Assembly: GCA_015232165.1 (NCBI GenBank)
Contig: JADGAE010000028.1
Location: forward strand, 1-12,365
Length of the DNA stretch: 12,365 bases
Source of the DNA: Nitrospirota bacterium
Lineage (GTDB): Bacteria; Nitrospirota; Thermodesulfovibrionia; Thermodesulfovibrionales; Magnetobacteriaceae
Direction: 5' to 3'
A program made the translations under genes and the position numbers. This document shows, piece after piece, positions 238 through 12,129 of the stretch. The notes beneath the pieces were generated by a model. The model had not been told where the DNA came from. It did no database searches and worked only from the letters and a program-made list of their open reading frames with translations. The stretch's first letter is position 1. Every line of letters begins with the position of its first letter.

Positions 238-1374
238 CTATAATAAGATTTCCTCACAGGCGGCGACCCCTTTGCCGAGACTCACCGGATGCCCTAACGT
301 CTTTAGGGTCATCTCAAGAGCGGAGATGGCGACAATGACGTCGAATCTGTCGGCATACCCAAGGTGTGCAATCCTGAAGACCTTTCCCTTTACCTGGTCC
401 TGTCCCCCGGCGATGGTGACGCCGTAGCGGGTCCTGAGCACCTTGTATATCTCCTGACCGTCAACCCCTGATGGGGCCTCTATAGCCGTGACCGAGTTGC
501 TGGGGAGTTCCCTGGCAAACAGGTTCAGTCCCAGGGCCTTGACCCCCTCCCGTGTGGCATGGGCAAGTCTGGTGTGGCGCGCAAAGACGTTTGCCAACCC
601 CTCCTGCTCCAACAACTTGATCGCCTCGTTAAGGCCGATAATCAGCGTAACGGCTGACGTGAAGTTTGTCTGGTTCTCCTGGAGCTTCTTGCGTTCTGCC
701 TTGAGGTTGAAGTAGAATCTCTCGAGCTTTGAGGACTCGGCCTTTTTCCAGGCCTTCTCCGATACGCTGACAAAGGATAGTCCCGGTGGAAGCATAAGCC
801 CCTTCTGCGACCCCCCAACCATAATGTCTATCCCCCACTCATCCGTCCTGATGTCATGGGCAACCAGGGCGCTGATGGCATCAACTATCAGGATGGTGTC
901 ATCGTACCTGCCGACGATCTTTGCCAGGGCCTCGATATCGTGGTTTACGCCGGTGGATGTCTCCGTCGCCTGGACGAATACGCCCTTGACGTTGCCTTCC
1001 TTTTTGAGGAGTTCTTCAACAGCATAAGGCTCGACGCTGTATCCCCAATCGACCTTTATCTCCTTGACGTCCAGGCCGTAGCCCTTGCATATCTTCGTCC
1101 AACGCTCACCGAACTTCCCCCCGTCGATGACAACGACCTTGTCGTTCTTGTTGAAGAAGTTATTTACGGAGGCTACCATGCCACCCGTACCGGTGCTGCA
1201 TAGGATAAGCACGTCGTTTTGTGTCTGAAACAGCCGTTTAAGGCCGTTCTTTGCCGCCTCCAGTACCGGTATAAAGTCTGGGGCGCGGTGGTGTATCATA
1301 GGCATTGCCATGGCCAAAAGGGCCTCCGGTGGCACCGGTGTTGGCCCTGGAGCCAATAAATACTTCTTAAACAT
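238..1374 (-). CDS. class V PLP-dependent aminotransferase (alanine/serine-glyoxylate or phosphoserine aminotransferase type)
   Basis: This 378-residue protein belongs to the class V aminotransferases of fold type I, in the group annotated as alanine-glyoxylate, serine-glyoxylate or serine-pyruvate aminotransferase (also 'soluble hydrogenase 42 kDa subunit'). The N-terminal L-L-x-P-G-P-T-P motif is at 6-13. The phosphate-binding T-G-T-G-G loop is at 61-65, the pyridine-nitrogen aspartate is D165 in VDAISAL, and the Schiff-base lysine is K191 in GGSQKGLMLPPG. Length is normal for the family. A longer frame begins at a TTG at 1389, but that codon overlaps the Shine-Dalgarno. GGAGG six bases before the ATG at 1374 fixes the start there. 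The gene precedes a probable serA, so it may act as the phosphohydroxypyruvate aminotransferase that feeds serine synthesis, as some family members do. Substrate cannot be read from sequence alone. Confidence 0.9.
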   Translation of the reverse strand: MFKKYLLAPGPTPVPPEALLAMAMPMIHHRAPDFIPVLEAAKNGLKRLFQTQNDVLILCSTGTGGMVASVNNFFNKNDKVVVIDGGKFGERWTKICKGYGLDVKEIKVDWGYSVEPYAVEELLKKEGNVKGVFVQATETSTGVNHDIEALAKIVGRYDDTILIVDAISALVAHDIRTDEWGIDIMVGGSQKGLMLPPGLSFVSVSEKAWKKAESSKLERFYFNLKAERKKLQENQTNFTSAVTLIIGLNEAIKLLEQEGLANVFARHTRLAHATREGVKALGLNLFARELPSNSVTAIEAPSGVDGQEIYKVLRTRYGVTIAGGQDQVKGKVFRIAHLGYADRFDVIVAISALEMTLKTLGHPVSLGKGVAACEEILL

Positions 1375-1403
1375 ATCGTTCCTCCACAATTGTAATACTG
1401 CTC

Positions 1404-1432
1404 TTGCTATTAATCATCACGATTATTATAAT
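1404..1432 (+). promoter_or_regulatory. sigma70-type promoter for the yacL-ispD-ispF unit
   Basis: TTGCTA at 1404-1409 and a perfect TATAAT at 1427-1432 are separated by 17 bases. Transcription would start near 1439 and leave a leader of about 120 nt before the yacL-like start. The match is good in the -10 and moderate (4 of 6) in the -35. Confidence 0.6.
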
Positions 1433-1454
1433 AAAAATCTAATAAAAGTTTCAT
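1425..1454 (-). promoter_or_regulatory. candidate divergent promoter for the aminotransferase gene
   Basis: Read on the minus strand, ATGAAA (1454-1449) and TATAAT (1430-1425) are 18 bases apart, about 50 bases upstream of the ATG at 1374. It overlaps the plus-strand promoter, so the two units could compete for polymerase. The -35 matches consensus at only four of six bases and the region is AT-rich, so chance is possible. Confidence 0.4.
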
Positions 1455-1466
1455 GCTTAAATATAA

Positions 1467-1521
1467 GCCTGTGTAAATGTCAGGCATGTTGGAGAATAAA
1501 TAAGGGGGCAATATTGCCCCC
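1467..1521 (+). promoter_or_regulatory. two hairpins in the yacL leader
   Basis: The predicted leader holds GCCTG/CAGGC (1467-1471 with 1481-1485, 9-base loop). It also holds a perfect 18-base palindrome, GGGGGCAATATTGCCCCC, at 1504-1521. Neither is followed by an oligo-T tract on the plus strand, so they do not look like simple terminators. They could be a protein-binding operator or leader RNA structure. No riboswitch class is recognisable. Confidence 0.4.
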
Positions 1522-1558
1522 GTAGCTACTTTATATAAGGAGAAAGGGTGTATAGGCA

Positions 1559-2533
1559 ATGGTAGTGTTTTTTAGATTAATGATTGTCCTGATTTTTGGG
1601 CTGATTGGCTTTATGCTTGGACAAGGGTATAGTTTTAAGCTCGAGGGGGCTGCGGCTGGGGTTTTACTGGGATTAATGGTTTCGGCGGCGGAGTTTTTTC
1701 TTAGGAGGTTTCGGTTAGGGAGGGTAGTTGGTGGGATGGTGGGTCTGTTTCTGGGCATTATACTTGCCAGGCTGATCATATATCCGATAGAGAGGCTGAT
1801 TGGGGATATTAACAGGATCACCTTTGTACTTGAGGCATTGATTGGTTATACGGGATTATTGATAGGTCTTACCAAGGGCGAGGGGTTGACCTTTGCCAGT
1901 TTCATGAGGTTATTCAGGGGGCAAAATATCGAGGAAAACGTCAAAATCCTCGACACAAGTTCCATTATTGACGGCAGGATTGCGGACGTGTGTGAAACAG
2001 GCTTTCTGGAGGGGACATTTATCGTTCCTCAGTTTATTTTGCAGGAATTGCAGCACATAGCGGACTCCTCCGACTCGATGAAACGCAGTCGGGGTCGAAG
2101 GGGTCTGGACGTCCTGCACAGGATGCAGAAATTTTCAAGCATAAACGTCCGGATCGTCGATGAGGAGTTCCAGAAGATTCGGGAGGTGGATTCAAAGCTC
2201 GTGGCACTGGCAAAGATGATGAACGCAAAGATCATCACCAACGACTTCAACCTCAACAAGGTGGCCCAGCTTCAGGACGTCCCCGTGCTCAACATCAACG
2301 AGTTGGCCAATGCCCTCAAGCCGGTTGTGCTGCCGGGGGAGATGATGAAGGTCTTCATTATCAAGGAGGGCAAGGAGTCCAATCAGGGTGTTGCCTACAC
2401 CGATGACGGGACAATGGTCGTGGTGGAAAACGCCAGAAAGCTCATCGGCAAAAATGTAGACGTAGTAGTCACCAGCGTGTTGCAGACCACCGCAGGCAGG
2501 ATGATATTCTCCAAGTCCAGCAGCGACTACTAA
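1559..2533 (+). CDS. YacL-type membrane protein with PIN and TRAM domains
   Basis: The 324-residue protein resembles Bacillus YacL. Hydrophobic segments cover about residues 3-21, 31-48, 55-74 and 87-104. A PIN nuclease-like domain follows at about 127-250 and a TRAM beta-barrel at about 258-318. The PIN acidic set is present: D132 in LDTSSIIDGR, E163 in LQEL, D211 in VDSKLVALA and D229 in TNDFNL. PIN domains of this kind are metal-dependent ribonucleases, and TRAM domains usually bind RNA. The natural substrate of YacL proteins is not established to my knowledge. The ATG at 1559 is chosen because an in-frame TAG lies two codons upstream. The AAGGAG at 1537-1542 is somewhat far away, and AAAGGG at 1543-1548 is an alternative ribosome site. 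The order yacL-ispD-ispF is also found in Bacillus, which supports the assignment. Confidence 0.88.
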   Translation: MVVFFRLMIVLIFGLIGFMLGQGYSFKLEGAAAGVLLGLMVSAAEFFLRRFRLGRVVGGMVGLFLGIILARLIIYPIERLIGDINRITFVLEALIGYTGLLIGLTKGEGLTFASFMRLFRGQNIEENVKILDTSSIIDGRIADVCETGFLEGTFIVPQFILQELQHIADSSDSMKRSRGRRGLDVLHRMQKFSSINVRIVDEEFQKIREVDSKLVALAKMMNAKIITNDFNLNKVAQLQDVPVLNINELANALKPVVLPGEMMKVFIIKEGKESNQGVAYTDDGTMVVVENARKLIGKNVDVVVTSVLQTTAGRMIFSKSSSDY

Positions 2534-2542
2534 GATAAAGGT

Positions 2543-2586
2543 AAAAGAGAGGGTGGGGGGGCTCCCCGCCCCTTCCTTTCTCTTGG
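2543..2586. repeat. GC-rich imperfect hairpin between yacL and ispD
   Basis: Purine-rich AAGAGAGGGTGGGG and pyrimidine-rich CCCCGCCCC...TCTCTT face each other around GGGGCTCCCC, ten bases after the yacL stop. The stem is imperfect and no T tract follows, so termination should be partial at most. Its polypurine/polypyrimidine style resembles the repeats at 3815-3896 and 4551-4650, but I cannot align it convincingly with them. Confidence 0.4.
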
Positions 2587-2634
2587 CTCGTATATATTAT
2601 TATGGCCATTGTAGTTGATAAGCAGACGGATAAA

Positions 2635-3351
2635 ATGACAATAGCAATAGTGCCATCGGCAGGTTTTGGTAGGAGATTCGGTTCCGGACGCAACAAGGTA
2701 TTTTATCCCTTGCTGGGGGTCCCGGTACTTGCCAGGACATTGCAGAGGCTCCAGGCGTGTCGGCAGATAGACGAGATTATCCCCGTCGTCCAGGATTGTG
2801 ACACCGAGGACACGCGTGCGCTCATAGAGAGGTTTGCGATAACGAAGGTCAAGCGTCTGGCCCCCGGTGGGGAGCGGCGTCAGGACTCCGTCTATAGTGC
2901 CCTGGGACTTATTGGTGGGGAGCCTGCGGGGGCTGCGGCAGTGGCGCTCATCCACGACGCCGCACGTCCCCTGATTTCGGATGCGCTACTGAGGGATTGC
3001 ATTGCCGGCCTCAGTGGGGCTGATGGCTTGGCCTGTGACGGGCTTGTATGTGCCGTGGCAGTCAAGGACACCGTCAAGGAGGTTGTCGATGGCTACGTGG
3101 TAAAGACCCTCAAACGGGATAGCCTCATGGCCGTGCAGACCCCACAGGTCTTTCTCTGTGGCACCATACTTGAAGCGTACAGGCGAGCGGCGGCGGATGG
3201 CCTGACCTTTACCGATGACACCTCGGCAGTTGAACACTACGGCGGCAGGATTAAGATCATCGCCGGTGAGTATAGCAACATCAAGATAACCACGAGGGAT
3301 GACCTCGCCTACGCACAATGGATACTCTCCCAACAGACGACATCAGAGTAG
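2635..3351 (+). CDS. ispD: 2-C-methyl-D-erythritol 4-phosphate cytidylyltransferase
   Basis: IspD couples CTP with 2-C-methyl-D-erythritol 4-phosphate to make CDP-ME in the non-mevalonate isoprenoid pathway in the cytoplasm. From the start chosen here the protein has 238 residues, normal for the family. The CTP-binding loop is at 8-21 (S-A-G-F-G-R-R-F-G...N-K, with R13/R14 and K21). Further signatures are GGERRQDSV at 78-86, HDAARPL at 107-113, KDTVK at 144-148, QTPQVF at 168-173 and TDD at 193-195. The frame also opens at an ATG at 2602, adding eleven residues, but IspD proteins normally begin two or three residues before the A-I-(I/V)-P strand, so 2635 fits better. Neither start has a strong ribosome site. 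The 3' end overlaps ispF. Confidence 0.93.
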   Translation: MTIAIVPSAGFGRRFGSGRNKVFYPLLGVPVLARTLQRLQACRQIDEIIPVVQDCDTEDTRALIERFAITKVKRLAPGGERRQDSVYSALGLIGGEPAGAAAVALIHDAARPLISDALLRDCIAGLSGADGLACDGLVCAVAVKDTVKEVVDGYVVKTLKRDSLMAVQTPQVFLCGTILEAYRRAAADGLTFTDDTSAVEHYGGRIKIIAGEYSNIKITTRDDLAYAQWILSQQTTSE

Positions 3352-3815
3352 GGCTGGGTTACGACTCACACCGTCTGGTTCAGGGCAGGCGGCTCATCCT
3401 CGGCGGCGTTGAACTGACCTTTGACAGGGGGCTGGCCGGTCACTCCGATGCCGACGTCCTGTGTCACAGTATCATCGACGCCATTATCGGGGCAGCGGGG
3501 CTTGGCGATATCGGGCGGATGTTCCCCGATACCGACGCCACCTACAAGGACGCATGCAGCCTCGACATGCTCAGACTTGTCATCGACAAGGTCAGGCAAG
3601 AGGGGTTTGTTGTCACCTGGCTCGATTGCATTGTAATCATGGAGCGTCCCAAACTTGCCCCCTACATCGGGCAGCTCAAGCAATCCCTTGCGTTAACGGG
3701 CATCCCCTGCAGCCTCATCAACATAAAGGCCAAGACCAACGAAGGTATGGGGTTTATCGGGCGAGGCGAGGGCGTTGCCTCTTTGGCCACCTGTACGCTC
3801 AGGAGGGTCAGGTGA
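3318..3815 (+). CDS. ispF: 2-C-methyl-D-erythritol 2,4-cyclodiphosphate synthase
   Basis: IspF cyclises CDP-ME 2-phosphate to MEcPP with release of CMP, two steps after IspD, and works as a zinc-containing trimer. The 165-residue protein shows the zinc ligands D16 and H18 in GYDSHR and H50 in SDADVLCH. The conserved GLGDIGRMFPDTD lies at 61-73 and KTNEGMGFIGRGEG at 139-152. The ATG at 3318 lies inside ispD, a 34-nt overlap, and is the only reasonable start upstream of the first beta strand. No clear Shine-Dalgarno precedes it, so translation is probably coupled to ispD. The genes are separate, unlike the fused IspDF of some bacteria. A GC-rich palindromic repeat begins at its stop codon. Confidence 0.95.
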   Translation: MDTLPTDDIRVGLGYDSHRLVQGRRLILGGVELTFDRGLAGHSDADVLCHSIIDAIIGAAGLGDIGRMFPDTDATYKDACSLDMLRLVIDKVRQEGFVVTWLDCIVIMERPKLAPYIGQLKQSLALTGIPCSLINIKAKTNEGMGFIGRGEGVASLATCTLRRVR

Positions 3816-3896
3816 AAGGGGCAGCTCCGCTCGCATAGCGACGTTACCGCGCCCCCTTCAACCCCCCGCAAGGGGACCAGTCCCCTTGACCCCATT
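3815..3896. repeat. dispersed palindromic repeat, copy A
   Basis: This roughly 80-base repeat starts at the ispF stop codon and resembles the stretch at 4563-4650. It has two parts. The first is a hairpin-forming section (AAGGGG near 3817 pairs with CCCCTT near 3853-3858), with GGCAGCTCCGC shared by both copies. The second is a 28-base section at 3868-3895 identical to 4622-4649, containing the perfect palindrome CAAGGGGACCAGTCCCCTTG (3869-3888; 9-bp stem, 2-base loop). It is not followed by a plus-strand T tract. Repeats of this style occur in multiple copies in some Nitrospirota genomes, as far as I recall. Confidence 0.8.
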
Positions 3897-3934
3897 AAAG
3901 TGCCGTGAATTTTGTAGTTAATCCAATCGAAATT

Positions 3935-3943
3935 TGCTATAAA
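3935..3943 (+). promoter_or_regulatory. extended -10 promoter for the YgiT-type gene
   Basis: TGCTATAAA at 3935-3943 fits an extended -10 element (TGn plus TATAAT-like). A poorly matching TTGTAG lies 20 bases upstream. The start point would be near 3950, leaving a leader of about ten bases with AGGA (3954-3957) just before the ATG. Confidence 0.45.
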
Positions 3944-3960
3944 ATAGTGTATCAGGAAAA

Positions 3961-4209
3961 ATGAAAGTTTGTAATTTTTGCGGGGACAATAGTTTTATAG
4001 AAAAACGTGTGCAATACATATATAAGCACGATGATCGATTTCTTATCGTAAACAGTGTGCCATGTCAAGAGTGCGGGTTTTGTGGGGAACAATATTTTGA
4101 GGCCGCCGTATTAAAAAAAATTGAAAAAGATTTTCATGACATATATTTTCATGGCAGGGCAGTCGAACAAGAAATAAAGGTGCCTGTTGAAGAATTTGTT
4201 GAGACTTAG
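3961..4209 (+). CDS. YgiT-type zinc finger protein (MqsA N-terminal-like)
   Basis: The 82-residue protein has C4/C7 (CNFC) and C35/C38 (CQEC) followed by GFCGEQYFE, the two-CxxC zinc-binding module of the MqsA/YgiT family. An extra cysteine sits at C41. It ends soon after a short helix and has no C-terminal helix-turn-helix, unlike full-length MqsA antitoxins. Stand-alone YgiT-type proteins usually lie directly after a small DUF4258 toxin gene. Here the upstream 145 bases hold only a dispersed repeat and a promoter-like site, and a tRNA gene on the opposite strand follows, so it appears to be an orphan. The role as antitoxin or metal-binding regulator is inferred from family only. Confidence 0.8.
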   Translation: MKVCNFCGDNSFIEKRVQYIYKHDDRFLIVNSVPCQECGFCGEQYFEAAVLKKIEKDFHDIYFHGRAVEQEIKVPVEEFVET

Positions 4210-4228: not shown

Positions 4229-4301
4229 AGGCGGCGGCCGGATTCGAACCGGCGCATAAAGGTTTTGCAGACCTCCCCCTTAGCCACTTGGGTACGCCGC
4301 C
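4229..4301 (-). tRNA. tRNA-Cys (anticodon GCA)
   Basis: Read on the minus strand, the acceptor stem GGCGGCG (4301-4295) pairs with CGCCGCC (4236-4230). The anticodon arm is GAGGT-CTGCAAA-ACCTT with anticodon GCA. The T arm is GCCGG-TTCGAAT-CCGGC. The base after the acceptor stem (4229) is U, the discriminator typical of tRNA-Cys. CCA is not encoded. The gene stands alone between two convergent protein-coding units and has its own promoter. Confidence 0.96.
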
Positions 4302-4707: not shown

Positions 4708-5613
4708 CTACTTGATAAAGACCTTGTGTTTTTCCAACACCGTCTTGAATTCCGGACTCTTTCTCAGATTTTTCAGCTCACTGTCCTTGCGTAAGAGATC
4801 ATACTCTTTAAATCCGTTTTCCAATGCCTTATCAAGGTTATCAAGTGCGAAGTCTATCTTGTTTTCCAACGAGTACAGGCAGGCAAGGTTATAATACACA
4901 CTGTAGCTAGTCGGTATAAGGTCAACAGCCATTTTGAGGTCTTCTTCGGCCTTGTTCATTTTCTTTAGCACCATATAGGCCGTTCCTCTGTGTTCGTATG
5001 CCTTGCCTATTTTGCTTTTGTCACCACGTGACTCGAGCTCTATTGCCTTTGTATATTCGTTAATTGCGTTATTCATGCTCTCCTCAAAGGCGGCCTTATC
5101 GTTGCTGCTATTCTTTGCAAGTGCAATCCAGCGGAAGCCTTCTTGAATATGCCTGGCTGCTTCTTGTTTCTTCGTCTCATTTACGCTATCACCAGAGGGA
5201 TTTGGAGCCGACGGAGATGACGATTGTGAAGGTGATGGCAATGTTGCTGAAGGTGACGAGGGTTTCACACACTTGTCTTTTTTTACCTCATTGATTAGTT
5301 TTTGTTTATCGTCTTCTGACATCTTTAAGGATGTTGCAATCTTGTCTGCTTCCTCACAGCTTATAGCTCCGTTTCCACAGCAATCGGTAGAGTCACAGCA
5401 CTTCGTAACGGCTGCCTTATACTTTTTCTTAGGCCCTTCGAGGAGCTTTAATGATACAACGACTAGCAGGATTATTAACAATACACCTACAATTGACCCA
5501 ATTATTATCAACTTAAGCTTTGAGTCAACAGGCTTGTTGTTTCCACATGCCTGACATGTATTCATATTATTTGAATTGCTAGTACCACAACTACATATCC
5601 AATTACTGCTCAT
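4708..5613 (-). CDS. membrane-anchored zinc-ribbon / EF-hand-like / TPR protein
   Basis: The 301-residue protein has a clear modular layout. W5-x-C7-x-C9-x10-C20-x2-C23 forms a small zinc finger of the RanBP2/zinc-ribbon kind. One transmembrane segment follows at about 34-57. A cysteine-rich part at 72-115 contains D77-C-C-G-N-G-A-I-S-C-E-E88, which fits the EF-hand spacing (Asp1, Asn5, Gly6, Ile8, Glu12) with cysteines at other positions. A Pro/Ser linker spans about 116-142. TPR-like helical repeats span about 175-270, and the tail D-x-E-L-x-x-L-R-x-S-P-E-F is common at the end of TPR proteins. The zinc finger and TPR part should lie on opposite membrane faces. The ATG overlaps the end of the tubulin-like gene by 11 nt, with GGGAGG six bases upstream, so translation is probably coupled. 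It may be an adaptor; the function is unknown. Confidence 0.82.
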   Translation of the reverse strand: MSSNWICSCGTSNSNNMNTCQACGNNKPVDSKLKLIIIGSIVGVLLIILLVVVSLKLLEGPKKKYKAAVTKCCDSTDCCGNGAISCEEADKIATSLKMSEDDKQKLINEVKKDKCVKPSSPSATLPSPSQSSSPSAPNPSGDSVNETKKQEAARHIQEGFRWIALAKNSSNDKAAFEESMNNAINEYTKAIELESRGDKSKIGKAYEHRGTAYMVLKKMNKAEEDLKMAVDLIPTSYSVYYNLACLYSLENKIDFALDNLDKALENGFKEYDLLRKDSELKNLRKSPEFKTVLEKHKVFIK

Positions 5614-8600
5614 TTTTTACCTCCCGTTCAATAGTTAATACCTCGTCGTCGGTCAACCCCAACTGCCTCTGCTTTCCTTTCAAGAAGGTTCTGTCATCCG
5701 GTATGAATATCCAGGAACATGACTTAAACGCCTCTTTGTACTGCTTGTATAGCTCTTCTTTATCGGGCTCTTTATCGACAATGTACAAGGCTTCTGTTAC
5801 CAATTTTTCGGACGTCTCAGGCCTAAGTCCATGACGATTGACTCCTTTGCTTATGAGTGCAGCCTTGTCTCTAACCCCTCTTTCGACTACCAATATCGAA
5901 AGTTCTTTTTTAAAGGCTGCCTCGTTGGGGGTAGTGTCCTCATCTTTAGGCGGGTTGACAGGATCGCCTATGTTTTCAGGTATGTTCTCAGGCACCTCAA
6001 GATTATGCTTCTGTCTGTACTCCTCGATAATGTCTAGCTGTCTCTTGAACTCGGGATTGGCCTCCATGTCATCGAGAGATTTCTTTAGATTATTAAGGTA
6101 TTCCTCAAGGCGTAGCCACAGTGCTTCCTTGTCTTTCTTTGTCTTTAGGGAGCCCGCTATTTTATCGACGAGCCTTACAAGTACCTCAAGCGGGGTCTCG
6201 TTGGCCGTGAGGTTGTCTATGTCTTTACTTACCTGTATAGCGATTAAGTGGGACTCAACGTCGGGCCAGTTTCTAGTAAGCTTGTCGAATGTTTTTTGTC
6301 TACTTCGCTCGTCGTGATATATCAGGTAGATATAGTCATAGCCCGAGACCGTATCAGGTCTCTGTACCAGAAAGTCAAATATCCTTCCCAACAGGACGTA
6401 GGACTCTGCCTGGCGTTTTATATCAGCCTTCCTGTCATCAGGAAAGATGTCCGGAAAGTCGATACTTACGTCGGTACTGCGGGGCTTTACGGACAGGTAG
6501 CTCTGTCTGTAGGCATCCAGTACGGTTATCTTATGCAGGGGGAAGGCCAGATACTCCGACGCAAATATGATCCTGTAGACATCTGACAGTCTGTTCATAT
6601 GGGAGAGATTGCCTCCCTGGGCGTAGTTCTTTATGGCGTAGATTTTTTCAATAAGCGCCTGCATGTTAGGATCGCTGTCGGGATTGGACGTCCCCAGCCA
6701 TTCGTGTATGACCCCTTCTCCCACGTCAGGGTCGGAGATTGAGATCATCGGTCTTGACATGAGAATGTAAGAGTTAAGGATGTTGGCCAACCCCTTTGAC
6801 GGGCTCATCAACAGTATGTTTGCTATGGAATATCGCCTGATCTCCGAACACTTGTCCTTACATTTATTCAGAAGGGTTATGATAAAGTCTTCCTGTTTTA
6901 GCTCGACAATATTTAATATCCTGGCCTCATCTATAACGGTGCCACTGCTGTCTTTTTTTGCAAAGTGACGGGTGATGTCATTCATTATGCTTACGGCGTA
7001 GACGGAGGGGTCTGAAACGATGGACCTTATCACCTCATATAGACTTACCCTGTTTAGCATCAGGTCGTTAAAGGACTTGTGGGTAAGAACTACGTCTTCG
7101 ATGTCCTGCTTTTTTTGTGAGAACCTGGTTGACAGGCTTGTTATATTGCCCTTGTATCTTGCAAGGCTCTTTCTAAGTATCTCAATTTCGTCCATCACCG
7201 AGCGCGTAACACTGCCGTCATCAAGGCGCAACCCCTTGGCGGTGTCCAGCATATCTATGATTACCCTGTAGGACTCGGCATACAGAGCGGCCTTGGTGTA
7301 ATCTTTGATGCAGTCATAGACCTTGTTTATCCAATCCAGGACGGCAAACCTTTCCCTCCCTATGGTCTCTCGCAGGACGGTGATTGAGGCCGAGTACTTA
7401 TCCTGCATGGCCGTCATATCATCCTGGAGCGACTTGTGCATCCTGTTAAGGGTGGGCAGTTGTTCACCTATATAGCCGGCGAGGTTATTTAAAAAGGCAT
7501 TTGCCATCAGATGCCCCTTGTACTGGTCCTCTACGGTTTTTAGGGTTAACTCCTTTAGTTGATTGATGACGCTGTTTAACTGAAGTATCCCTGTCATCTG
7601 TATTGCCCTGGTCAAGGCCCCCCAGAGTTTTGGGTCTGCGCTAAACTGAAGCATCCTCTTGTACTCGTTGAAGTGCATATCGATGTTGGCTATCTTATTG
7701 GTGTCTTTTTGTGCTATGGTTTCGTGCTTCTTTGTCTCGATAGCGAAGTTGGTCTCGTTTATTATGCTTTTCTTTTCGGGATTTAACAGCGTCTTAAGCA
7801 TATTTACTTTATCCAGTTTGGTTAGGATGTCGCTGTCAACCGGGGTTACTGCATCCTTAAATAGCCATTTTTCAAGGGTGGCAGAGGCCATTTCGTAGGC
7901 CATCATCTCCTCAACCTTGAAGACGGGAAACGACAGAGAGGATAGCCCAAAGGACAGAAACGACTTGGGCTTGACGGACTTCTCAAAAAAGGCCGAACTT
8001 GCCTTCTTGTCAACCCTCAACCCCCTCTTGGTATCGGAGATGTCACTGCCGAATTCCAAAAAGAGGTTAAAGGCAACGACTTCCTCCAATTCACCCCTTA
8101 CAAGAAAATAGCTTCCGGCATCCTGTGTTACGAGATAGCAGTTATCAACAGGGGGCTGTTTTTCATTGATTATCTTCTCTACACCCGGGTCGGGGTATGT
8201 GGAGTTGAAGACGGTATCAGACATGCAGTAGTATTGGAGTTCCTTTAGTGCGCTGTAACAGTTGGCCTTTTTTACGGAATTATCTCCGCCGATGATAAAG
8301 ATACCTGTCAATTTGGCACTTTCAAAGGCATGGCGGGTATTATAGCACAACTCAAGAAAGGAACCGCTTCCCGTTCCACCCATGAAGGAACACACAATGT
8401 ATATATTCAAGATGTGATCACAGGGTTGTTTCAATGTCTGAGAGGTCTTGGTTTTGTTGTCATGTTGCAACACCTTGTTAGCCACACCCACCAGGCTACT
8501 TCTGTACTCGTTTACGCTGTACGTGAAGGCCAGTTTGCCAAACGGTCTTATTCCTCCGGCACCCTCGGGGATGGAGCTTGCGTTTATGGCCAGACTTGGG

Positions 8601-8893
8601 TCCAGCCAGGTAGCGGCCTTTTTCTTTATTAATGCTGCATCGGCCTTGGTTATTCCTCCGGAGAGTTCTATTCGTTCGGCCGCGCTGAATTTCAGGTTGT
8701 AGCCGAGATACTCGGTAACGGCGTTTGAACCGGCATCGGGCACCAGGTTGGTGTGGGTATCCACGTGGAGGAAGCCGATGCTTGGCAACTGATCCAGGGA
8801 GCCAAACTCCTCGACGATCATCCTTCTTACGTTGAGGAGGACGCTCTTGCCCGCGCCCCCGATCCCTACGATAACTGACGGTGAAAACGACAT
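5603..8893 (-). CDS. large tubulin/FtsZ-like GTPase
   Basis: The 1096-residue protein belongs to the bacterial tubulin-like group (Pfam Tubulin_2; related to the FtsZ-like families described by Makarova and Koonin). The N-terminal nucleotide loop reads V-I-V-G-I-G-G-A-G-K-S (7-17). The family block GAGGIRPFGKLAF is at 111-123 and the tubulin signature GGTGSGSF at 172-179. The position expected for the catalytic T7 loop reads NCYSALKEL (about 211-219), without the NxDxxD of FtsZ. The remaining roughly 800 residues are mostly charged and helical, with coiled-coil-like stretches. The C-terminal 130 residues hold two similar helical units, the last ending LGLTDDEVLTIEREV. No signal peptide or membrane segment is seen, so it should be cytoplasmic. 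Its ATG follows the upstream stop by one base. GTP-driven assembly and a membrane-linked role are inferred. Confidence 0.88.
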   Translation of the reverse strand: MSFSPSVIVGIGGAGKSVLLNVRRMIVEEFGSLDQLPSIGFLHVDTHTNLVPDAGSNAVTEYLGYNLKFSAAERIELSGGITKADAALIKKKAATWLDPSLAINASSIPEGAGGIRPFGKLAFTYSVNEYRSSLVGVANKVLQHDNKTKTSQTLKQPCDHILNIYIVCSFMGGTGSGSFLELCYNTRHAFESAKLTGIFIIGGDNSVKKANCYSALKELQYYCMSDTVFNSTYPDPGVEKIINEKQPPVDNCYLVTQDAGSYFLVRGELEEVVAFNLFLEFGSDISDTKRGLRVDKKASSAFFEKSVKPKSFLSFGLSSLSFPVFKVEEMMAYEMASATLEKWLFKDAVTPVDSDILTKLDKVNMLKTLLNPEKKSIINETNFAIETKKHETIAQKDTNKIANIDMHFNEYKRMLQFSADPKLWGALTRAIQMTGILQLNSVINQLKELTLKTVEDQYKGHLMANAFLNNLAGYIGEQLPTLNRMHKSLQDDMTAMQDKYSASITVLRETIGRERFAVLDWINKVYDCIKDYTKAALYAESYRVIIDMLDTAKGLRLDDGSVTRSVMDEIEILRKSLARYKGNITSLSTRFSQKKQDIEDVVLTHKSFNDLMLNRVSLYEVIRSIVSDPSVYAVSIMNDITRHFAKKDSSGTVIDEARILNIVELKQEDFIITLLNKCKDKCSEIRRYSIANILLMSPSKGLANILNSYILMSRPMISISDPDVGEGVIHEWLGTSNPDSDPNMQALIEKIYAIKNYAQGGNLSHMNRLSDVYRIIFASEYLAFPLHKITVLDAYRQSYLSVKPRSTDVSIDFPDIFPDDRKADIKRQAESYVLLGRIFDFLVQRPDTVSGYDYIYLIYHDERSRQKTFDKLTRNWPDVESHLIAIQVSKDIDNLTANETPLEVLVRLVDKIAGSLKTKKDKEALWLRLEEYLNNLKKSLDDMEANPEFKRQLDIIEEYRQKHNLEVPENIPENIGDPVNPPKDEDTTPNEAAFKKELSILVVERGVRDKAALISKGVNRHGLRPETSEKLVTEALYIVDKEPDKEELYKQYKEAFKSCSWIFIPDDRTFLKGKQRQLGLTDDEVLTIEREVKNEQ

Positions 8894-8894
8894 C

Positions 8895-9227
8895 TTACAC
8901 CCCCCTTGGTCTTGTTACGATGAGATAGACCATGTCAAAGATGAGTGCCAAGACCAGGATAATCAGCGCAATTATGGTGCTGTAAAACCCCAACAGGTCC
9001 AATGATGCAATGACCCAGGCCAGCATAAGAGAGGCGCTTAAGAAGACAGCTCCGTACTTGGCATGTTCTATATGTGGGTTTATAAGGTGATAGATGAGCC
9101 TTGTAAAACCGAAATAGAGCAGCCCAAAGAACACACAAAAGGCTACCGCAATGATGTACTCGTTTGTGGTCAGTATTAACGGTGGGGAGGTCTCAACAAC
9201 GACCTCCCATAAAAAGGTTCTGAACAT
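8895..9227 (-). CDS. small three-helix membrane protein
   Basis: This 110-residue protein is not one I recognise. Hydrophobic segments at about 22-45, 58-78 and 82-104 predict three transmembrane helices with short loops and a basic C-terminal tail (R-P-R-G-V). GGAGG lies just upstream of the ATG and directly after the caspase stop codon, and its own stop is one base from the tubulin-like start. Such close packing suggests stoichiometric production and coupled translation. It could anchor the tubulin-like protein to the membrane or link it to envelope partners. This is inference from position only. Confidence 0.8.
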   Translation of the reverse strand: MFRTFLWEVVVETSPPLILTTNEYIIAVAFCVFFGLLYFGFTRLIYHLINPHIEHAKYGAVFLSASLMLAWVIASLDLLGFYSTIIALIILVLALIFDMVYLIVTRPRGV

Positions 9228-9239
9228 ATATGTCCTCCT

Positions 9240-10565
9240 TTATTTAGCTAACTTTATGTTCCAGTCTTTATTATCGGCCACAGCCTGTGGAATCTGCGAT
9301 TTACCTTTTTTTTCTTTAAATACCCTTTCGGTAACGATTGGTTTAGCGTAGCTAAAAGCATTGGCAACACTGCCTTTGTTTTGTTTCAAACCATTGATTA
9401 GGTAGTGAGTGAAATAACTGTTATCAACTGAAGCATCCTCCCATGATTGTTCGCCAGGGCCACTTGCACTTATCAATACCTTGCCCCAGCCGTTAGATGA
9501 GAAGCTGGTTGTTGGTTCTTCCAACACTATATCTTTTGCACCTAACATACTTGCTTTTTGTTCCTTACTCATACCATCGTTGTAGTCTTCAGCTCCCAGT
9601 GATTTTGCAGTCTCGGAATAAAAGCCGTTTATACCACTATAGGCACCACCACTGAAACAGGTATCAAGTATAGCAACAAACCTCTTGGCTTTCATTCCCT
9701 GTATAAAATCACCAAGATGCTTTTTGCCGGTTATAGCCGTCTTCCATATTTCTTCCCTTGGCTCAGGTACTGAATCATAGGCTATAACACTAATATTGCC
9801 ATCTTTATCAGAAGGAGAACCATGACTACTTATGTATAAAACCACGAGGTCGTCTTCTTGCGCCCTGTCTTTTATGTTAGCCAAGGCATTTGCTATATTA
9901 TCCCTTGTAGCATCCTCGTTTAACAGTATAGTTGTATTATTCTTGGAAAACCCACCCCTTGATGGATCAACAAGATAGCGATAAAAGTCACTTGCGTCCT
10001 TTTTGGCATAGTCAAGTTTTCTTATTCTGTATTTGAAATTTCCTATCCCTACGACGAGTGCATATCTGTTTTTGATTGGGCCTGGAGGACCGGCGCTCTT
10101 CTTTACGGTGGTTTTTTTGGCTGCCTCCAGCATCATCTCCGAGAGCTTCTTGCTCCAGCCTGGTACGGCGACATTTTCAGGGTCTACGGGGGAAACCCAC
10201 TTGACACCCACCGTCTGTTGAGCCAGAGAAAAGGCCACATCCACCTCGTCTTCGTTCAGATACGAACCCTTAAGCTGTATCCGTCCGAACCTGTCTATCT
10301 CCACATAGCCATCTCTGACGTTGTTCTTCTTAAACAAATCGTTGATCGCAGCTACGTGACGCCCTGTAATTGGCGAGGAAGGATTTGGGTTTACCTGTGC
10401 CGAGGTAGCTGCCAGACCTGGCGAGACCGGAGATGGAGGTGATACCTCCGGTTGGCCATAAGACTGCATCCCCACCCCTGAAACACTTTGCATCGGGATA
10501 CATTGCAGCAGTAAAAACGTAACCGAAATAAGGCAGGCAACTAACAACAAATAACTCTTTTTCAT
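9240..10565 (-). CDS. caspase-like (peptidase C14) protein with BON-like module and export signal
   Basis: The 441-residue protein has a basic N-terminus and a hydrophobic segment (5-21) ending at C22 in LLLQC. This looks like a lipoprotein signal, although Gln before the cysteine is unusual. A Pro/Ser-rich spacer spans about 36-66. A BON-like alpha/beta module follows at about 68-130 (G-R-I-Q-L-K-G-x-Y and a closing V-G-V-K-W-V). The caspase/p20-like domain starts at about 166 with YALVVGIGNFKY. The catalytic histidine is H248 in YISSHGS and the cysteine is C303 in ILDTCFSGG, so the dyad is intact. GEQSWED (371-377) fits the family's later substrate-pocket region. Export would place a cysteine peptidase in the periplasm or outer membrane. 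If the hydrophobic segment is instead a membrane anchor, the location is similar. AGGAGG lies nine bases before the ATG. Confidence 0.88.
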   Translation of the reverse strand: MKKSYLLLVACLISVTFLLLQCIPMQSVSGVGMQSYGQPEVSPPSPVSPGLAATSAQVNPNPSSPITGRHVAAINDLFKKNNVRDGYVEIDRFGRIQLKGSYLNEDEVDVAFSLAQQTVGVKWVSPVDPENVAVPGWSKKLSEMMLEAAKKTTVKKSAGPPGPIKNRYALVVGIGNFKYRIRKLDYAKKDASDFYRYLVDPSRGGFSKNNTTILLNEDATRDNIANALANIKDRAQEDDLVVLYISSHGSPSDKDGNISVIAYDSVPEPREEIWKTAITGKKHLGDFIQGMKAKRFVAILDTCFSGGAYSGINGFYSETAKSLGAEDYNDGMSKEQKASMLGAKDIVLEEPTTSFSSNGWGKVLISASGPGEQSWEDASVDNSYFTHYLINGLKQNKGSVANAFSYAKPIVTERVFKEKKGKSQIPQAVADNKDWNIKLAK

Positions 10566-10631
10566 AATAACATACCTCCTGATTTAAGCTGATGAGGGGA
10601 GCAAGGCTCCCCCCACCTTTTTGTATGTGCG
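10566..10631 (-). promoter_or_regulatory. intercistronic hairpin before the caspase gene
   Basis: This 66-base gap is the widest inside the operon. It holds a perfect 7-bp stem with a 3-base loop (GGGGAGC 10596-10602, GCTCCCC 10606-10612) and the caspase ribosome site AGGAGG (10580-10575). On the minus strand no T tract follows the stem, so it is more likely an mRNA-stability or partial-attenuation element than a full terminator. On the plus strand TTTTT does follow, but no plus-strand gene needs it. Confidence 0.5.
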
Positions 10632-11330
10632 TTAATTTTTAACGGTGACCTCAGCCTCGCGCCTGTCAGTCTGGCCCTTGTATGACACCTCGTAGATGAA
10701 CTTATATCGCCCCTCCGGCAGGTCCTTATGAATAGGAAATGGTCCTTCAACCTTTCTTGTCCCGGGGTCTATTGTCTTTTTTTGACTATATGGCTCTTTG
10801 TTAAGCTCATTAGCATTGCCGTCTTTATCGTAATATACAATAGAGAACGACTCCGTTACGCTCATGTCTTTTGCACCCGCTTCCATGACATAGTATGCAC
10901 CTGAGAGGGTAACTTCTTTTCCTGGCGGTACGGTAGAAGGTGAAATGTTGAACTTCTCCAGCTTTACCAAGGTGCCTTTCTTAGGGTCATAGTTGATTGA
11001 CTTTGCGGTTTCCTGGTAATTTGCCGCCTGCCTATTGGATACGTTAAAGTAATAGTTTATGCACTTACCCCATGCAAGGGCAAAGGCCACGGTGCCGCCT
11101 GCTATGGCACCCTTGACGGCGCCTCTTCCGCCTCCAGTCAATCCCCCTAATATGCCACCTGCAATGGCACCGCCCACCGTGTTGGCGATTATACACTCAT
11201 CCTTTGCCGCATTACGTTCTTCATCGGTCATGTCTTCAGGCCGCTTGGACGACATGGGGATACATGATGTAAATAAAAACGCCGTTATTACAAGCAGCGC
11301 GACCAAGTTATGTCTCTTGCTGATCTTCAT
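10632..11330 (-). CDS. glycine-zipper lipoprotein with C-terminal beta-rich domain
   Basis: The 232-residue protein starts with a basic n-region, a hydrophobic core and the lipobox L19-F-T-S-C23, so it is probably lipidated. Residues 52-80 form a glycine zipper (repeated GG at three- to four-residue spacing: TVGGAIAGGILGG, then GGGRGAVKGAIAGG), running into a hydrophobic stretch to about 88. Such segments insert in or pack against membranes. From about 120 the sequence turns beta-rich with alternating polar and hydrophobic residues and a terminal EVTVKN strand, and may be an immunoglobulin-like fold. The start of the mature form (C-I-P-M-S-S) resembles that of the caspase protein (C-I-P-M-Q-S). 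The start has AGGAGA upstream and is 19 nt from the previous gene. The family is not identified beyond glycine zipper. Confidence 0.8.
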   Translation of the reverse strand: MKISKRHNLVALLVITAFLFTSCIPMSSKRPEDMTDEERNAAKDECIIANTVGGAIAGGILGGLTGGGRGAVKGAIAGGTVAFALAWGKCINYYFNVSNRQAANYQETAKSINYDPKKGTLVKLEKFNISPSTVPPGKEVTLSGAYYVMEAGAKDMSVTESFSIVYYDKDGNANELNKEPYSQKKTIDPGTRKVEGPFPIHKDLPEGRYKFIYEVSYKGQTDRREAEVTVKN

Positions 11331-11349
11331 TGATTGTCTCTCCTTTTGT

Positions 11350-12129
11350 TTAACCTTTATGTCTGAGTTTTATCTGTACCACAAATGACTTCCCTGCATC
11401 TATGAGCGCAGATGGAATAACGCCATAGTTATTACCACTGTCGCTCTCCAATACGATATCCTTGCTGCCAGAACTCTCTAATCTGCAATTGTTAGGAGAG
11501 TAAACGCCATAGCTGGTGCCAATGGCATCCTCGGCAACAATATCTTTAGAACCGCTGGATACCATCAGCATGTGTGGCTTACAGTCAGGTCTTGCCTCAA
11601 CAGGTATACGGTCGGATGCACCGGATAACTCGAAGAATATTGACTCCGTACCCGGCGGATCGACAATGCGCATGGCCGTGCCTTTAGGTATCTCGATTGG
11701 AGTAAAAGGGCTTACAGGCCCGTTAAACAAGTAGTTGGTGTTACCCGTTGGTCCCACATTATACACAGCCAGATTGCCCGGCTTGTTTGACTGTGCAATT
11801 ATCTTTATCCTATCGCCTGTTCTAAACACACGCTTGTCTGAAACCGGCCGTGGAAAGCCGTCAGCAGATATGAGCATCACCGTATACTTGATCCCGATGT
11901 GCGGACCGTATGCAACGTTTACTACATTTCCCGGATCACGTCTTTCAACCCTTGTGGTTTCCGTAACTGTTGTCTTTTTTCTCTCTGTTGATATATTTAC
12001 TTTCGACCCCTCATTTTCAAACAGACCTTTAGCGCCACTGGGCTCGGCACTATAGACTCTTATGCTTCCTGCAAGGGCCAGCATTACTATCGCAACAACA
12101 CTAATCACCCTATAGAACCTGTTACTCAT
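11350..12129 (-). CDS. secreted DUF4384-like protein with internal duplication
   Basis: The 259-residue protein has a signal peptide (hydrophobic 8-21, likely cleavage after Y-S-A28). A DUF4384-like domain spans about 80-170: F-R-T-G-D-R-I-K-I-I-A-Q-S at 102-114, followed by G-N-L-A-V-Y-N and N-Y-L-F-N. Proteins with this domain often accompany caspase-family peptidases, which fits here. The C-terminal third contains two matching units, SSGSKDIVAEDAIGTSYGV (191-209) and SSGSKDIVLESDSGNNYGV (219-237), each preceded by a cysteine (C183, C215). The start is set by GGAGG six bases before the ATG. It is the first gene of the six-gene minus-strand set within the window. A periplasmic ligand-binding or partner-binding role is inferred. 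Confidence 0.78.
   Translation of the reverse strand: MSNRFYRVISVVAIVMLALAGSIRVYSAEPSGAKGLFENEGSKVNISTERKKTTVTETTRVERRDPGNVVNVAYGPHIGIKYTVMLISADGFPRPVSDKRVFRTGDRIKIIAQSNKPGNLAVYNVGPTGNTNYLFNGPVSPFTPIEIPKGTAMRIVDPPGTESIFFELSGASDRIPVEARPDCKPHMLMVSSGSKDIVAEDAIGTSYGVYSPNNCRLESSGSKDIVLESDSGNNYGVIPSALIDAGKSFVVQIKLRHKG
11419..11559 (-). repeat. internal duplication coding for two SSGSKDIV units
   Basis: Codons for residues 191-209 (11559-11503) and 219-237 (11475-11419) of the DUF4384-like protein encode near-identical peptides 28 residues apart. The DNA copies have diverged at many third positions, so the duplication is not recent and the peptide pattern appears to be under selection. Confidence 0.7.

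Follow-up and report, generated by a model that had tools for sequence, protein, structure and literature searches.

The window analysed here, an entire 12,365-nt contig (JADGAE010000028.1; G000:C216) of a Nitrospirota genome with a completeness of 56.75% (GCA_015232165.1), carries a minus-strand operon of six genes that joins a tubulin-like GTPase to an exported caspase-like peptidase. The host is a member of the genus Candidatus (Ca.) Magnetobacterium. Compared with related loci, the operon reads as two merged modules, each of which is also found separately: an envelope cassette around the caspase (module A) and a membrane module around the tubulin-like protein (module B). Together they probably form a transmembrane device coupling the tubulin-like GTPase to an envelope protease, and the comparisons suggest a cytoskeleton-to-envelope protease switch of an undescribed kind.

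The initial annotation had described six genes encoding, in order, a DUF4384-like protein (D4384), a glycine-zipper lipoprotein (GZIP), the caspase (CASP), a three-helix membrane protein (TM3), the tubulin-like protein (TUB) and a zinc-ribbon/TPR protein (ZnTPR), spaced by 19, 66, 12, 1 and -11 nt; this layout was borne out by the list of open reading frames (ORFs), by Pfam and by synteny within the genus. Among genome contigs, close relatives of the window were Ca. Magnetobacterium casense MYR-1, MYbinv3 and nDJH13bin1. The same six genes were found in the same order at three further loci (L010, L011 and L012), and thus in 4/4 genus genomes found, window included. Identities to the window proteins were lowest for ZnTPR (55%) and highest for TM3 (89%), the -11 nt overlap of TUB and ZnTPR was identical in all four genomes, and the first gap measured 19, 19, 19 and 18 nt. 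Against the window, dN/dS ranged from 0.12 to 0.42 (six genes, three comparisons), with dS of ~0.4-1.6. The aminotransferase, PIN-TRAM, IspD, IspF and MqsA-like genes of the window had no match in the stretches of L010-L012 examined. Among the flanks of these three loci, the sole close match in the ORF comparison was an IF-2B gene common to L010 and L011; all other matches were weak (25-32%), and tblastx of the flanks gave only self-matches among those listed. As gene order is kept within the genus while the flanking genes differ, the operon is a unit.

CASP matched Peptidase_C14 (PF00656; 1.5e-18, 67.7 bits against a cut-off of 21.4), and the solved structures that it matched were metacaspases. 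H248, D301 and C303 were invariant in 20/20 aligned sequences; with H248 and C303, which we take to be the catalytic dyad from the known caspase motif, the protein keeps an intact His/Cys dyad. Its N-terminal region is weakly BON-like (partial profile alignment to OsmY, 33 columns), the BON domain PF04972 finding no match in the window protein and, among five homologues scanned, only P0029 (0.0091, under the cut-off). The export signal noted in the initial annotation stands as predicted export, but CASP may be a lipoprotein in this genus, where its N-terminus, longer than in relatives, reads LLLQ|C and so departs from the canonical lipobox. Outside the genus, most of the 16 homologues aligned have a signal peptide and no obvious lipobox (by eye). 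We know of no experimental function for this exported caspase family.

This family comprises 499 proteins at E<=1e-3, the window's own included (7998 candidates scored). Among the 120 of 499 listed, names include Thermodesulfovibrionales, Syntrophorhabdaceae and Comamonadaceae, and entries outside the genus share 43-52% identity with CASP. Some CASP match was present in 34/100 related genomes, near full-length outside the genus only in G205, G057 and G058 (47-56% identity). At the three corresponding loci (L100-L102), D4384-GZIP stands directly before the caspase in 3/3. L102 consists of D4384-GZIP-CASP, while L100 and L101 read D4384-GZIP-CASP-TPR, with a 212-aa TPR lipoprotein directly after the caspase whose N-terminus is lipobox-like (by eye). 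Neither TM3 nor TUB had a match in the L100-L102 stretches, and PF13809 had none in the genomes G057 and G058 (G205 lay outside that set).

TUB, the core of module B, matched Tubulin_2 (PF13809; 1.3e-54, 186.3 bits against a cut-off of 27), also termed FtsZ-like-1. The GTP-loop motif is intact: GGTG[ST]G was present in 9/9 aligned sequences, the window reading MGGTGSG with M replacing the first G of the classical motif. Residues ~324-840, inspected in an AlphaFold model for a central coiled coil and helical C-terminal domain, were predicted mostly helical at a predicted local distance difference test (pLDDT) mostly below 60. Foldseek placed tubulin/FtsZ structures as the best matches of this model, none at E<=0.001, which would only agree with the Pfam assignment. 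The TUB profile had three matches among PDB sequences, none of the tubulin family (best 3e-6, a chain named THR6).

TUB relatives are few: nine proteins including the window's own were found in a database search (7994 candidates scored), six of the others being of full-length type and two distant. Full-length identities were 70-77% for two named Nitrospirae entries and 33-34% for four, one of them named Desulfobacterales. When the TUB alignment was searched against 245 host-phylum genomes, four matched, strongly in the own genome, G001 and G002 and weakly in G008. Against the 395 genomes of the phylum of a deltaproteobacterial host, YD0425bin50 (G060), ten matched, G060 and G408 strongly, and against the 291 genomes of its order 14 matched, at full length in G060 only. 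The G060 locus (L013) encodes TM3, TUB and a 205-aa zinc-ribbon/transmembrane protein; next come a 266-aa protein whose N-terminus is signal-like (by eye) and a DUF4384 protein (3e-11). TM3 homologues directly precede TUB in L013 and in the G408 locus (L044), the only two significant TM3 sequence matches outside the genus. In L067, L124, L125 and L127, too, the gene directly before TUB encodes a protein of 113-131 aa that has three hydrophobic segments, so that TM3 may represent one variety of a common partner.

Other features were noted at tubulin-like loci. The C-terminus of the L013 tubulin-like protein (540-4091) has a weak TerB match (0.0044). In L046 (G008:C12, 6736-16409), a 993-aa Tubulin_2 protein lies beside AAA, FtsK/PD-(D/E)XK and Eco57I-type methylase genes and the locus resembles a defence-type one. 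L057 (G002:C24:36000-55900, 7579-17845) encodes a second Tubulin_2-like protein of 515 aa and a 1096-aa protein without a Pfam match, together with MotA/ExbB and a weak GldM-like protein; a similar 507/1113-aa pair occurs in L047 (G014).

The last gene ties the two modules together. It had been described as a membrane zinc-ribbon/TPR protein; both parts are indeed present, but the halves have different relatives, which makes it a two-part gene. Residues 4-95 match the 205-aa protein that follows TUB in L013 (9e-10), whereas the TPR lipoprotein of L100 aligns with residues 118-300 at 40% identity (7e-39 when composition statistics are off; 3.1e-38 by profile), up to a shared ILEKHKVFI-type C-terminal end. 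ZnTPR is thus a fusion of the module B zinc-ribbon/transmembrane adaptor with the module A TPR. The fused form was found in all four genus genomes and also in P0131-P0133, which include a protein from M. bavaricum. A search with only the first 118 residues returned four of 94 candidates, counting the window protein itself, and all four have TPR domains; it was not exhaustive, since it did not recover the copies of L010 and L012 or L013. Hydropathy indicates one helix (residues 35-53), and since the ribbon precedes this helix and a former lipoprotein domain follows it, the simplest topology would place the zinc ribbon inside and the TPR outside. Just after the membrane helix, residues ~71-86 read KCCDSTDCCGNGAISC, a segment that is Cys-rich in the four genus copies and has no Cys in L013.

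In Magnetobacterium, module B sits between the caspase and the TPR. As module A is the more widespread, module B was presumably inserted into module A. The fusion is comparative evidence for a link of the two sides across the inner membrane.

In the proposed device, TUB would bind GTP and, docked to TM3 and the zinc ribbon, assemble at the cytoplasmic face of the inner membrane. The fused ZnTPR helix would relay the state of TUB to the periplasm, where the TPR would hold the DUF4384, glycine-zipper and caspase proteins. TUB assembly or disassembly would then position or release the caspase, whose cleavage of envelope proteins would lead to envelope remodelling or to killing of a damaged cell. 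The membrane-spanning GTPase-protease device of the initial annotation thus gains support from four-species synteny and from the gene fusion, while its role in the cell (envelope control, cell death or defence) is put forward as a hypothesis. If the proposal is true, the operon would be an example from bacteria in which a relative of tubulin controls a relative of caspases on the other side of a membrane. The natural fusion bridging the TUB and CASP sides makes the partnership concrete and testable in its contacts, its membrane side and the GTP-driven gating of the protease.

The co-occurrence of tubulin-like and caspase homologues, a check named in the initial annotation, was also inspected outside the genus. 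On one strand, L044 encodes an exported TPR protein, a lipoprotein, an exported M48-like/CHAT protein (CHAT 7.5e-50), an OmpA-DUF4384 protein, a TM3 homologue (1.8e-18) and a same-clade TUB (6.5e-76), export and lipobox being judged by eye. In G825, the third same-strand gene after Tubulin_2, past one for a weak DUF4384 protein (0.00081), encodes a caspase/FGE-sulfatase with a transmembrane segment (C14 3e-23). The sixth same-strand gene after Tubulin_2 in G774 encodes an exported caspase (C14 3.8e-17), and between the two lie genes for a membrane trypsin-like protease and a zinc-ribbon-transmembrane-peptidoglycan-binding protein; as this zinc-ribbon protein bears a peptidoglycan-binding outer part, the outer domain of such adaptors varies. 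Genes for von Willebrand factor A (vWA) proteins lie upstream in both G825 (Pfam) and G774 (by motif only). The G774 locus (L119/L128; G774:C1 ~1.935-1.955 Mb) comprises a Tubulin_2 gene, two zinc-ribbon-transmembrane proteins, a LysM solute-binding protein, the membrane trypsin and the exported caspase, and peptidoglycan binding is suggested for the outer parts of both zinc-ribbon proteins, by PG_binding_1 in Pfam and by a SPOR-like appearance by eye.

Outside the genus, C14 or CHAT lay within ~10 kb of Tubulin_2 at 3/26 loci against 0.7 expected (P = 0.035), and C14 alone at 2 against 0.225 expected (P = 0.022), distances being read by eye and the 20-kb window having been set after G774, G825 and G408 were seen. 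Among the 36 genomes with any Tubulin_2-type match, 28 entered the count, weak, partial or short-form matches being left out (G014, G016, G018, G535, G620, G750, G755 and G896); for the P values the four Magnetobacterium genomes were excluded, giving 24 genomes and 26 loci, with the three adjacent matches of G331 taken as one. These counts are lower bounds, because the PF00656 genome search missed the G002 and G003 operon caspases found by the protein search. The CHAT locus L044 and the caspase loci of G825 and G774 suggest that the tubulin-protease pairing recurs beyond the genus. More tentatively, transmembrane cytoskeleton-protease switches could form a general class in which FtsZ-like-1 tubulins supply the cytoplasmic half. 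A small three-helix membrane protein and a zinc-ribbon-transmembrane adaptor whose outer domain can be exchanged (a TPR here, a peptidoglycan-binding domain in G774) would then link GTP-driven assembly to an exported clan CD protease, either caspase or CHAT, gained separately by several lineages.

Several points weigh against the coupling of GTPase and protease. C14/CHAT genes are only modestly enriched near Tubulin_2, by a post hoc count. The caspase profile found none in the first 15 other Tubulin_2 loci, where a single-sequence CHAT query gave no other CHAT, and a second set of 10 loci yielded two caspases and no CHAT. The TUB of L044 is cut by the contig end, the L013 contig starts 200 bases before TM3, and both C14 matches of the L013 genome lie on other contigs. 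The AlphaFold model of TUB (nine sequences) is of low confidence (pLDDT 56.2, predicted template modelling score 0.32), and the single-sequence model of CASP was unusable (pLDDT 42.6). The caspase family is also common without tubulin. Tubulin-like and caspase homologues do stand together in 4/4 genus genomes, but the caspase is far wider (499 against 9 proteins) and exists without tubulin, so that their association is regarded as lineage-specific, with looser recurrences elsewhere.

The explanations considered are not mutually exclusive, and the confidence attached to each overlaps with that of the others. In an operon of convenience, two independent envelope modules would be co-transcribed, the fusion merely anchoring the TPR and no coupling taking place. 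That each module is found without the other and that the caspase family is widespread would fit this explanation, which is nevertheless unlikely: order and fusion are kept in 4/4 genomes at the dS given above, a CHAT-protease analogue adjoins TM3-TUB in L044, and no new anchor is needed because the TPR of L100/L101 already has its lipobox-like N-terminus. An ordinary FtsZ-like-1 membrane-remodelling system, with the caspase cassette as an accessory processing its own envelope partners, overlaps with the coupled device and is conceivable but doubtful. Its core gene matches the family, L044 contains OmpA-DUF4384, and vWA (8) and OmpA (4) were the commonest informative families among 89 neighbours of the 15 other Tubulin_2 loci, a survey in which 25 of 85 families were listed and a lone weak match could be hidden. 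However, neither the vWA nor the GTPase partner turned up in the window or the flanks tested, and a literature search that covered few subscription journals found no paper with an experimental function of FtsZ-like-1 proteins, described in 2010, to compare against.

Caspases and CHAT proteases are known defence effectors, and in an anti-phage or abortive-infection system TUB assembly would sense infection and free the caspase, and the cell would die. A generic caspase match in PADLOC (8.1e-12) and the patchy distribution (4/245 host-phylum genomes, one weakly) are consistent with such a role. It is decidedly unlikely, as the gene set of a recognised system was not found, PADLOC on the six operon proteins, to which it was confined, giving otherwise one weak match (0.0037); moreover, Pfam recognised no defence gene in the flanks scanned, the viral contigs hold no relative (23 pattern stretches, none related), and to our knowledge the known defence caspases are cytosolic whereas CASP is exported. 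A mobile element or virus was likewise rejected: viral contigs gave no relative, and the plasmid-record matches, 30 for the caspase and five for TUB, are all distant and each spans less than 80% of the query. The genus Magnetobacterium is magnetotactic, which raises the question of a magnetosome or magnetic-chain system, but genomes of this kind are sampled preferentially from magnetotactic cells. For YD0425bin50, the host of L013, a MamA match above the cut-off was found, and passages of PMC5955933 attribute magnetosome genes to it. Against this, the best MamA match of G408, which has TM3-TUB, is a 683-aa frame (5.6e-32), like those of G057 and G205 (~2e-31), and its frames of MamA size reach at most 3.9e-16 among the matches listed; the test is soft, the model matching 13/14 control genomes and the Magnetobacterium genomes themselves falling under the cut-off (7e-37 to 3e-42). 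With no magnetosome gene recognised by Pfam in the flanks scanned, a magnetosome link, softly weakened by G408, is highly improbable.

The features of the window are listed in Table 1. The DUF4384 match of gene 1 was under the cut-off (4.5e-5; 23.9 against 27 bits), its L100 homologue reaching 7.3e-11, and the glycine zipper of GZIP was weak (0.033), its L100 homologue being barely above the cut-off (2.5e-5; 24.5 against 24.2 bits). Gene 6 matched TPR_1 at 4.7e-12. TM3 showed three hydrophobic segments by hydropathy and was not clearly assigned to any family by Pfam, PADLOC or NCBIfam. The GC-rich hairpin between GZIP and CASP has no sense-strand T run, for which reason an intrinsic terminator was rejected; it is a possible mRNA processing or attenuation site.

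Table 1. Genes and other features of the Magnetobacterium window (positions on the forward strand).
Feature	Position	Strand	Description
Gene 1, D4384	11350..12129	-	Exported 259-aa protein with DUF4384-like domain and hydrophobic N-terminus; kept in L010, L011 and L012
Gene 2, GZIP	10632..11330	-	232-aa putative lipoprotein with FTSC lipobox (by eye), glycine zipper and further C-terminal region
Stem-loop GGGGAGC-CTT-GCTCCCC	10596..10612	-	Between GZIP and CASP; similar stem in L012
Gene 3, CASP	9240..10565	-	Exported Peptidase_C14 caspase with BON-like N-terminal region; His248 and Cys303 catalytic by position
Gene 4, TM3	8895..9227	-	110-aa three-helix membrane protein; first gene of the tubulin module
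Gene 5, TUB	5603..8893	-	1096-aa Tubulin_2 / FtsZ-like-1 protein with GGTGSG loop
Gene 6, ZnTPR	4708..5613	-	Zinc ribbon and transmembrane helix (~residues 1-110), then TPR region (~118-300)
tRNA-Cys gene	4229..4301		Just downstream of the operon
MqsA/YokU-like gene	3961..4209		Orphan 82-aa zinc protein downstream of the operon; weak, under cut-offs

Three known systems bear comparison with the Magnetobacterium operon. FtsZ-like 1 (FtsZl1, Tubulin_2) systems are described with vWA, GTPase, kinase and OmpA partners, the vWA partner in the majority of operons and the OmpA-family partner in several genomes only (Makarova and Koonin 2010, PMC2875224); by term search, the main text of that paper mentions neither caspase, peptidase or protease nor zinc or TPR, and passages of PMC9871819 treat Tubulin_2 proteins as a divergent group. 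The literature search, which covered few subscription journals, found no paper joining tubulin-like proteins with caspase in bacteria, nor Magnetobacterium with caspase. The operon shares with FtsZ-like 1 systems the tubulin family and membrane-protein neighbours, and differs in its exported caspase cassette and its zinc-ribbon-transmembrane-TPR fusion. No vWA protein was found among nine window proteins (E<=1; IspD and IspF lay outside the scan) or ten flanking proteins of L010-L012 (E<=0.001), nor was a P-loop GTPase or Ser/Thr protein kinase partner in the same scans, the histidine kinase in the L012 flank being of another type; no OmpA-family partner was found in the window proteins scanned. 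The initial annotation had seen no partner described by Makarova and Koonin, which holds for these nine and ten proteins but not for L044, with its OmpA-domain partner. Because this divergent relative has such a partner, the operon is considered a variant of the known FtsZ-like-1 family and not unrelated to it: its core is assigned to that family, joined to a separate, common caspase cassette. With the exported bacterial caspases (orthocaspase/metacaspase-like), it shares the predicted His/Cys dyad, the BON-like N-terminal region and the DUF4384 and glycine-zipper neighbours (3/3 loci examined), whereas those three loci are without the tubulin module and the Magnetobacterium CASP has the longer, possibly lipidated N-terminus. 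The third system is the CHAT locus L044, from the phylum of the L013 host, in which TM3 and a same-clade TUB likewise follow an exported TPR protein, a lipoprotein, a clan CD protease and a DUF4384 protein, but with CHAT replacing the caspase and OmpA fused to DUF4384.

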